From contig JAPCJN010000003.1 of assembly GCA_027886925.1 (NCBI GenBank), forward strand, positions 1 to 14,458: 14,458 nt of DNA. The letters run 5' to 3'. A program made the translations under genes and the position numbers. A model generated the notes under the pieces. The model was not told the origin of the DNA. It did no database searches and worked only from the letters and a program-made list of their open reading frames with translations. The DNA comes from Nitrososphaerota archaeon. Lineage in GTDB: Archaea; Thermoproteota; Nitrososphaeria; Nitrososphaerales; UBA183. Positions 7,356-12,302 of this stretch are shown here, piece by piece (position 1 is the first letter of the stretch; each line of letters opens with the position of its first letter).

Positions 7356-7377
7356 AATCACCGAGAGGCTTCAAAGC

Positions 7378-7383
7378 TATATT
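7378..7383 (+). promoter_or_regulatory. TATA box of tRNA-Ser
   Basis: TATATT is centred about 25 bp before the first base of the tRNA (7406), the expected spacing for an archaeal RNA promoter. Confidence 0.6.
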
Positions 7384-7438
7384 GGGTTGAAAGCCCGGTG
7401 AAGGGGCCGGGGTGGCAGAGTCTGGTTAACGCGCGGGC

Positions 7439-7476
7439 AATTCGATTCATTCGCTGGACAAGTGACGAATCCGCAA
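7439..7476 (+). other. tRNA intron 1, at position 31/32
   Basis: The splice sites lie in a bulge-helix-bulge: helix GCGG (7433-7436) with CCGC (7471-7474), 3-nt bulges GC^A (7437-7439) and AA^C (7475-7477), and inner helix ATTCG (7440-7444) with CGAAT (7466-7470). Cutting after the second bulge base on each side gives a 38-nt intron at the end of the anticodon stem, a non-canonical position. The outer helix is absent, so this is a relaxed HBh' motif. Confidence 0.8.
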
Positions 7477-7482
7477 CTCGAG

Positions 7483-7497
7483 ATCAATCGGCTGGAC
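7483..7497 (+). other. tRNA intron 2, canonical position 37/38 (15 nt)
   Basis: Fifteen bases must be removed here for a seven-base anticodon loop. With boundaries at AG^A (7481-7483) and AC^A (7496-7498), the flanking anticodon stem is the outer helix and CTCG (7477-7480) faces CTGG (7492-7495), pairing at three of four positions (C34-U mismatch). The inner helix is minimal. Boundaries shifted by a few bases give other serine anticodon loops but place C rather than a purine at position 37. Confidence 0.6.
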
Positions 7498-7530
7498 AGC
7501 CCGTGACCCCTTGGGTCATGTGGGTTCAAA

Positions 7531-7562
7531 ACCTGGTGGACGCGGTGGTCCACGGGTGAAAG
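7531..7562 (+). other. tRNA intron 3, in the T-loop at position 59/60
   Basis: A complete bulge-helix-bulge is visible. The outer helix is the T-stem GTGGG/CCCAC (7520-7524/7564-7568). The central helix is TTCA/TGAA (7525-7528/7557-7560), with bulges AA^A (7529-7531) and AG^T (7561-7563). The inner arm is CC/GG continuing to GTGGAC/GTCCAC around a GCGGTG loop. Splicing restores the standard T-loop TTCAAAT. Confidence 0.9.
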
Positions 7563-7741
7563 TCCCACCCCCGGCGCCTACCCAATCTGTAACCGCGTCC
7601 TCGACCTGGCCAGAGACTCGGATTTTGGCTTGAGAGTCATCTCGAAACCCGTCCACAAAGGGCATCGGGAGGGTGGCCGACGACGCTCCTATTCTTTTTA
7701 GCCAGGCGGCGACTTGCTTTGGGTCTCACCTGAAATGCGAG

Positions 7742-10805: not shown

Positions 10806-12302
10806 TTGAAGATGCCGCCGGGAGAGCTGGCCTTCGCGGTTTCAAAGGTCCTGTCGCAAGGTTACCAGATAGAACCGGACGCGTTTTCGCTTCTTATTGA
10901 GCTGTCGTCGAGAGAAGATGTCGGCGCAATCTTGAGGACGGTAATCGAGAGGAAGGAATCTCTGAAGACTGAAAGAGTGATTCGAAGGTCCGACCTAGAC
11001 GTATTTCTCCCACGAGGGGGCGAAGAAGAAAGACGGAGCTCTGTGGTCCCGGAAGATTTCCCTGCCGACGTGTCGATTGTCAGCGACCCGACGACGCAGA
11101 TTTCTCCTGCGGAGGCCGAGGATGGTTTCAAGAAGCTTTTCCAGGACAGGTTCTTGCACCTGTTGGAGATAGCAAAGCGGCGGCCAGATTCGAAAAATAT
11201 AGTTCCCATAGAGTCGGCGAGGGACGGAAGGGAAAAGTCGCAGAGAATCGCTGGCTTGCTGTCTTCCAGGGTGAGCAAGAAAGGCGGAGGGGTAGAGCTG
11301 GTGATAGACGACCCCACTGGGAGTGCAAAGCTGTATTGCGGGGACGATGTGTCGGACGTTGCGCTAGCGTTCCCTTTTGACGGTCTTGTGATAGCCGAGG
11401 TCGCTCCCGGAAGAGGAGGACAGCTCTATGCGAAGGAGCTTCTCTTTCCGGACCTCCCAGCGAGAAAGGCGGTGGGCTCTTCGCACAGGGTCTACGCGGT
11501 CCTTCTCTCTGATTTGCACATAGGGAGCAAGCTCTTCCTGTCAGATGATTTCAACCGGTTCCTGGCGTGGCTCAACGGGAAGCTCGGAGACCTGGACATA
11601 GTCGAGAGGATAAGGTATGTCGTGGTCGCGGGCGACGTCGTGGACGGCATCGGCGTCTACCCTGGGCAGGAGTATCAGCTGTCGGAGAGGAACCTCAAGA
11701 GGCAGTATGTCGTCGCCGCGGAGTTCCTCCAGCAGGTTCCTAAACACATGAAGCTGATCATCTCCCCAGGCAATCACGATCCCGTGAGGCAGGCATTGCC
11801 TCAACCGGCGGTCTCAATCGACGTCGCGAATCCGCTTTACGGGCTGGCCAACGCGGTCCACATCGGAAGTCCGTCTAACATCAAACTCGATGGCGTGAAC
11901 TTCTTGGTCTATCATGGGAGAAGTCTCGACGACGTCATCGCGACAGTCCCCGACCTGACATATGACAGGCCGGTGGATGCGATGGAAGTCCTTCTGAAAT
12001 CAAGGCACCTGGCCCCGACCTATGGTAAGCGCACAGCGCTCGCGCCGGAGATAAAGGACATGTTGGTTATTGATCCGGTGCCAGACGTGTTTCACGCTGG
12101 TCATGTGCACACGCTGGACGTGGGTAGCTACAGAGGGACGCTCATGGTCAACTCCGGGACCTTCCAGGGCCAGACGCCTTTCCAAGCCAATATGGGAATC
12201 GACCCTATAGCTTCGATAGTGCCGATCCTGGACCTCTCCACTCTTGAGGTGATAAAGCGAAACTTCACCAGGAGCAGCTTCGGCGAACTACTGAAGGCCT
12301 AA
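10806..12302 (+). CDS. polB: DNA polymerase D (polymerase II) small subunit DP1
   Basis: The 498-residue exonuclease subunit of archaeal family D DNA polymerase proofreads with 3'-5' activity and binds the large subunit DP2, which is not in this window. The N-terminal 110 residues are variable; an OB-like region spans about 140-225. The calcineurin-like phosphoesterase domain shows all metal-binding motifs: SDLHIG (235-240), GDVVDG (276-281), PGNHD (321-325), YHGRS (369-373) and HAGHVHT (430-436). The C-terminus has the family's NSGTFQGQTPFQ (449-460). The start is TTG 10806, immediately after the mutase stop, or ATG 10812. The 3' end overlaps the convergent orc1/cdc6 by 15 bp. Confidence 0.95.
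   Translation: MKMPPGELAFAVSKVLSQGYQIEPDAFSLLIELSSREDVGAILRTVIERKESLKTERVIRRSDLDVFLPRGGEEERRSSVVPEDFPADVSIVSDPTTQISPAEAEDGFKKLFQDRFLHLLEIAKRRPDSKNIVPIESARDGREKSQRIAGLLSSRVSKKGGGVELVIDDPTGSAKLYCGDDVSDVALAFPFDGLVIAEVAPGRGGQLYAKELLFPDLPARKAVGSSHRVYAVLLSDLHIGSKLFLSDDFNRFLAWLNGKLGDLDIVERIRYVVVAGDVVDGIGVYPGQEYQLSERNLKRQYVVAAEFLQQVPKHMKLIISPGNHDPVRQALPQPAVSIDVANPLYGLANAVHIGSPSNIKLDGVNFLVYHGRSLDDVIATVPDLTYDRPVDAMEVLLKSRHLAPTYGKRTALAPEIKDMLVIDPVPDVFHAGHVHTLDVGSYRGTLMVNSGTFQGQTPFQANMGIDPIASIVPILDLSTLEVIKRNFTRSSFGELLKA

Follow-up and report, generated by a model that had tools for sequence, protein, structure and literature searches.

The window analysed here, a stretch of 14,458 nucleotides, very probably carries a functional tRNA-Ser(CGA) of the soil Thaumarchaeota group I.1c, with its own TATA promoter and three introns that would be excised by an (alpha-beta)2 endonuclease, the exons being joined by RtcB. 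The gene lies at 7406-7576 on the + strand and consists of a 33-nt exon, a 38-nt intron, a 6-nt exon, a 15-nt intron, a 33-nt exon, a 32-nt intron and a 14-nt exon (Table 1). A preliminary description of this DNA had claimed excisions of 38, 15 and 32 nt at 31/32, 37/38 and 59/60 that lead to an 86-nt serine tRNA. This was confirmed by ARAGORN, by our own solver and by the orthologues. With the three introns out, the 86-mer was called tRNA-Ser(CGA) by ARAGORN. It was a class II cloverleaf with a long variable arm, the anticodon CGA, G73 and one D-stem mismatch, A12-C23. Our solver excises candidate bulge-helix-bulge (BHB) introns and then checks for a cloverleaf, and splice positions were not supplied to it. 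The identical 86-nt tRNA was obtained from one of the 19 T-arm seeds in the window. In its output the 38-nt insert was divided into 27 nt and a nested piece of 11 nt, with total and product unchanged. In the scan of the window, the unspliced gene was invisible to ARAGORN and to the Rfam model RF00005 (E<=1). The sole RF00005 match in the window was at 1-79, a tRNA cut by the window start which reads as tRNA-Leu(CAG).

Table 1. Parts of the tRNA-Ser(CGA) gene and its promoter element in the window.
Feature	Position	Strand	Remarks
BRE/TATA-like promoter element TTCAAAGCTATATTGG	7370..7385	+	conserved A/T run in orthologues
Exon 1: acceptor 5' strand, D-arm, positions 26-31	7406..7438	+	
Intron 1, 38 nt, position 31/32	7439..7476	+	central helix exon 26-29 (GCGG)/intron CCGC; bulges GC/A, AA/C; inner helix ATTCG/CGAAT
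Exon 2: anticodon loop 32-37 (CTCGAG)	7477..7482	+	anticodon CGA at 7479-7481
Intron 2, 15 nt, canonical position 37/38	7483..7497	+	relaxed motif; outer helix = anticodon stem; C34 mismatched
Exon 3: position 38, anticodon stem 3' strand, long variable arm, T-stem 5' strand, T-loop to position 59	7498..7530	+	
Intron 3, 32 nt, T-loop position 59/60	7531..7562	+	full hBHBh': T-stem, central TTCA/TGAA, inner CCTG/CGGG
Exon 4: position 60, T-stem 3' strand, acceptor 3' strand, discriminator G73	7563..7576	+	

The host belongs to group I.1c of the soil Thaumarchaeota (Gagatemarchaeaceae) and not to Thermoproteales. The window encodes DP1, the small subunit of PolD, at 10806-12302, as identified by profile matches and homologues. 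In a contig scan (best 80 of 443), the closest DP1 was that of palsa_1368 with 77% identity. The next four, which included AcS1-27 and AcS4-109, were at 60-62% and came from soil or other metagenome-derived genomes. In a DP1 tree of 29 rows, the window and palsa_1368 (L001) were grouped at 100/100; L142-L144 were left out of this tree, so that G003, G013 and G014 are absent from it, and L022 and several outgroups were on long branches. The palsa-1368 and AcS genomes have been placed in Thaumarchaeota group I.1c, family Gagatemarchaeaceae (PMC10640624). The same paper describes group I.1c as deeply rooted, and the family as one of acidic soils with a predicted growth optimum of 36-38 C in rows of its table. 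Several introns in one tRNA had been said to point to Thermoproteales or to deep thaumarchaeal relatives. By DP1 and PMC10640624 the second part of this claim stood, and Thermoproteales could be dropped. The rarity of multi-intron tRNAs had been somewhat overstated, because published tools already provide for thaumarchaeal tRNAs with several introns each (PMC8450103).

The gene was compared by BLAST with the 80 loci of the contig scan (best 80 of 443). It was found in 20 of them, always on the same locus as DP1 and at most 5 kb away. These 20 loci represent 19 genomes, because L012 and L023 are both from A_CRE_07 (G016). In the alignment, introns 1 and 2 were at identical positions in all 20 loci; the intron sequences diverged and the exons were nearly unchanged. 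A regular expression over the fetched sequences, in which intron 3 was optional, gave 27 distinct orthologous genes including that of the window, and this set gives no independent test of introns 1 and 2 because the expression required both. Intron 3, the T-loop intron, was present or absent as a unit and occurred in 11 of the 27 genes. Since introns 1 and 2 keep their positions in the 20 loci and the T-loop intron comes and goes whole, the insertions are more than chance. Mapped on the DP1 tree, where 26 rows had a state, intron 3 requires two changes: it was either gained twice or gained once and lost once. This presence and absence at one locus provides an ortholog series for timing intron gain and loss. 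The more distant Ser CGA genes of L026, L027, L030 and L034 had a single intron each by the ARAGORN call. When run with introns, ARAGORN mis-assigned the gene in several relatives as Thr-AGT, Ser-AGA or Ser-GCT. In the single genome record of A_CRE_07, L012 and L023 differed in both their DP1 and their Ser-CGA gene, which means that this bin may be mixed.

A putative TATA-type promoter is conserved upstream of tRNA-Ser(CGA). An A/T run of at least 5 was found at -38..-23 in 26 of the 27 orthologues and in none of the 27 in either -58..-43 or -18..-3, the stretch -38..-23 having been picked after the sequences had been viewed. The A/T content at -30..-26 was 0.93.

The conservation of the gene was weighed against decay into a pseudo-tRNA, in which the insertions would be damage and the UCG codons would be read by another tRNA. 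Such decay would fit the failure of ARAGORN and RF00005 to detect the gene, and also the A12-C23 mismatch. This mismatch had been pointed out before and was real. A12 is at window 7417, and the mismatch was common to L002 only (2/27), with G-C or A-U in the other 25 orthologues; it slightly weakens the D-stem and counts slightly against a functional gene. However, the exons are nearly unchanged and introns 1 and 2 are fixed in position across the orthologues in 20 loci, the pairs of the splice motifs are kept, and so is the promoter in 26/27. The preliminary description had named a second, uninterrupted tRNA-Ser(CGA) as the sign of a pseudo-tRNA, and none was seen in the genomes of 46 relatives at up to one mismatch. 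The pattern, which requires this anticodon stem, gave no match at zero mismatches in the 46 family genomes, whose completeness is unstated. At one mismatch it gave three matches in these genomes, none keeping the CGA anticodon. At two mismatches there were many matches, forward and control alike, and the set that was judged is the three matches at one mismatch. Decay is very improbable on these data, and a functional tRNA-Ser(CGA) with three introns is the best reading of the window gene.

We examined the splice motifs of the three introns. Intron 3 in the window had the full hBHBh' form, with the T-stem as outer helix. This agreed with the earlier claim of a textbook motif, as all motif helices were there and the central helix had 4/4 pairs in all 11 genes that carry the intron. 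The pairing was TTCA/TGAA in six, TTCA/TGGA in three and TTCG/CGAA in two of them. The last two, L119 and L120, showed a compensatory change from A57-U to G57-C. The inner helix began with a mismatch in L006 and broke after one pair in L001. A clear BHB had been claimed for the first intron as well as the third. This held for the third; in the first, a perfect central helix of 4 bp is accompanied by an inner but no outer helix. Intron 1 is thus the relaxed HBh' form and not the full hBHBh', because no outer helix adjoins its central helix. In this form it has the 4-bp central helix, the 3-nt bulges and the at least one flanking helix of an archaeal BHB. The central helix had 4/4 pairs in 26 of the 27 orthologues and 3/4 in L022, and the motif was already within the unconstrained minimum-energy fold of the precursor. 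Inner-helix pairs 1-6 were standard in 27, 25, 26, 26, 26 and 21 of the 27 genes, and both-side changes were seen at 6/6 scored pairs. In a swapped-arm control of the inner helices, intron 1 gave 5.59 vs 5.01 of 6 pairs and intron 3 gave 4.64 vs 4.31, a weak discrimination because the arms are conserved.

Intron 2, to which the preliminary description had assigned no motif, had a relaxed one. It lies at position 37/38 and has the anticodon stem as its outer helix. The central helix had 3/4 pairs in 25 of the 27 genes, the window included, and 2/4 in L022 and in L001, the closest relative. C32 and G35 were paired in 27/27, U33 in 25/27 and C34 in 0/27. When the motif was forced after removal of intron 1, the energy was -57.4 vs a free minimum of -63.1, which is 5.7 kcal/mol above the minimum, so the motif is not favoured by folding. 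The anticodon base C34 was never paired in this central helix (27/27), as if an opposing G were avoided, and by eye the same was seen in L026 and L027.

The same 85 nt might be removed in another number of events, for example with an 11-nt piece nested in intron 1. Our solver did score the parse of the 38-nt insert into 27 + 11 nt higher, but the motif of the 11-nt piece was weak (3/4 central pairs, inner helix 1, outer helix 5). Moreover, intron 1 of L019 is just 19 nt, too short for nesting, and the spliced product would be identical. We regard nested removal as highly unlikely and retain three excisions. A split or permuted gene, suggested by the junction motif that also occurs in split tRNAs (PMC3293823), is scarcely conceivable and was rejected, since the window gene has its exons one after another on a single strand, all inside 171 nt, and the remaining 26 distinct genes share this linear arrangement.

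A broad-specificity splicing endonuclease had been expected in such a host, and the genome search found it in relatives. Both alpha and beta subunits were found in 8 of 15 genomes (G001, G002, G005, G006, G007, G010, G016 and G019). Alpha alone was found in four (G011, G014, G018 and G038) and beta alone in two (G009 and G012), with neither clearly in G013. The alphas of G005 and G011 were cut by contig ends. The test was a Pfam search for 14 of the 15 genomes and tblastn on part of a contig for G019; both were used for G012. The full-length alphas of the relatives keep Tyr, His and Lys at the places which we take to be the catalytic sites. In the deposited 3ajv chain the place of the catalytic His is Ala, and the beta subunits of the relatives are without the His. 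The full-length alphas also keep the lysine aligned with K44 of Aeropyrum pernix 3p1z, a residue with a role in the broad specificity of that enzyme (PMC6379350). By sequence, the relatives encode a two-subunit endonuclease of the (alpha-beta)2 type with the crenarchaea-specific loop, predicted to be a heterotetramer of catalytic alpha and non-catalytic beta. In G012 (two contigs, 1.19 Mb) alpha was not found by Pfam or tblastn, though beta and the same three-intron gene were there. This genome nevertheless has about 1.5 introns per solved tRNA gene; it may be incomplete or its alpha may be divergent. RtcB was found in all four of the relatives' genomes tested. The RtcB of palsa_1368 (G001:C76:8135-10948) had about 490 extra in-frame residues after profile position 50, which are probably an intein in the tRNA ligase.

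These results suggested a splicing route. Transcription from the gene's own TATA promoter would give a precursor of about 171 nt, not counting any ends. The (alpha-beta)2 endonuclease would recognise the three BHB motifs and remove 38, 15 and 32 nt, and RtcB would ligate the exons into the 86-nt tRNA that reads UCG. The route draws on the gene anatomy, the orthology, the conservation of motifs and promoter, and both enzyme subunits and RtcB in relatives, all read from sequence. Intron 1 probably leaves before intron 2, because its central helix holds positions 26-29, and three of these (27-29) are part of the anticodon stem, the outer helix of intron 2. Excision of the T-loop intron could be independent, since the T-stem that serves as its outer helix is intact. 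Dependence of the excision of one tRNA intron on another is described as known by the authors of tRNAscan-SE 2.0 (PMC8450103). The ordered splicing is a prediction open to test with recombinant enzyme.

Multi-intron tRNAs are already known, and the window tRNA adds to them. What appears newer is the intron load across the family and the four-intron initiator tRNAs described below. In Thermoproteales, for example in tRNA-Pro(UGG) of Pyrobaculum islandicum, a tRNA likewise has up to three BHB introns, canonical and non-canonical, and position 59/60 is listed there (PMC4090602, PMC8450103). The window site 31/32 is absent from the example sites given for Thermoproteales in PMC4090602, a list that ends in "etc.". 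Unlike Thermoproteales, the host of the window belongs to another lineage, an acidic-soil family with a predicted optimum of 36-38 C (PMC10640624). In Caldiarchaeum subterraneum (Aigarchaeota), 3 of 45 tRNA genes are also multi-intron, with sites in the D-, V- and T-arms, but its introns are in other tRNAs and sites, such as 24/25 and 45/46 of tRNA-Thr (PMC3293823). The Thaumarchaeota treated with tRNAscan-SE 2.0 have the same motif class, with 107 non-canonical introns reported (PMC8450103); group I.1c is not named in the part of that paper on Thaumarchaeota introns available to us. The word "intron" has no occurrence in the main text of PMC10640624, one of the papers that name Gagatemarchaeaceae. 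The highest published number that we found is three introns per archaeal tRNA (PMC4033280, PMC8450103). No report of four was found, judging by titles and the starts of abstracts in a search outside which most subscription journals lie. The published average per tRNA gene is 0.21 introns in archaea and 0.84 in Thermoproteales, and Pyrobaculum calidifontis has 71 introns in 46 tRNA genes (PMC8450103).

The tRNA gene sets of the mesophilic soil group I.1c are rather likely to be among the most intron-laden known and would rival those of Thermoproteales, including initiator genes with four introns, above the published maximum. The window gene would be one sample of this load. The pattern of the 59/60 T-loop intron gave 38 matches in 25 of the 46 family genomes vs 5 for the reversed pattern. 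Among the matches listed, 28 loci were viewed, and these included several initiator and Ser GCU tRNAs and some with no visible tRNA. The 5' exon of the initiator tRNA was matched in 36 of the 46 genomes. Parsing was tried in 31 genomes and succeeded in 30, of which 2 had a single intron in the initiator gene, 15 had two, 11 had three and 2 had four. The 26 spliced initiator forms shown were called tRNA-Met(CAT) by ARAGORN, and we take them to be initiators from A1-U72 and the GGG/CCC anticodon stem. The four-intron genes were L228 (G005) and L237 (G016), from about locus position 1501, with sites in the D-loop, at 37/38, at 52/53 in the T-stem and at 59/60 in the T-loop. Both parses were reproduced by our own solver, with the D-loop boundary in G005 shifted by two bases. 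G016 (A_CRE_07) is possibly a mixed bin, and its four-intron gene is on one contig. If the four introns are true, the supply of initiator tRNA would depend on four partly ordered excisions.

A census of two genomes was made with the solver. In G012, whose two contigs were joined from stretches, a solver score of at least 21 was reached by 25 tRNA genes, compared to 0 in the reversed sequence. Of 39 printed introns, 37 were left after discounting two variable arms, about 1.5 per gene, and 4 of the 25 genes were without an intron. In G019 (1.18 of 1.50 Mb), 18 tRNA genes were found vs 1 in the control, with 18 printed introns, 17 after correction, or about 0.9 per gene. These densities are subset figures because the solver, which requires GTTCRA, misses some genes, such as the initiator tRNA of G019 and the tRNA-Thr(GGT) of L007 that was seen by ARAGORN. 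The solver also cuts some Ser and Leu variable arms as introns, and Leu-TAA and Ser-GCT in G012 and Ser-GGA in G019 were corrected by eye. A heavy tRNA intron load at many sites in soil archaea of moderate predicted temperature means that a hot habitat is not required. Since ARAGORN and the Rfam tRNA model miss such a gene as that of the window, a genome of this kind can seem incomplete when its tRNAs are counted without regard to introns. In G036, an initiator-like 3' fragment with T-arm inserts of its own was observed downstream of the initiator gene, at a distance of about 600 bases (G036:C44:159797 and 160392; L252 and L211).
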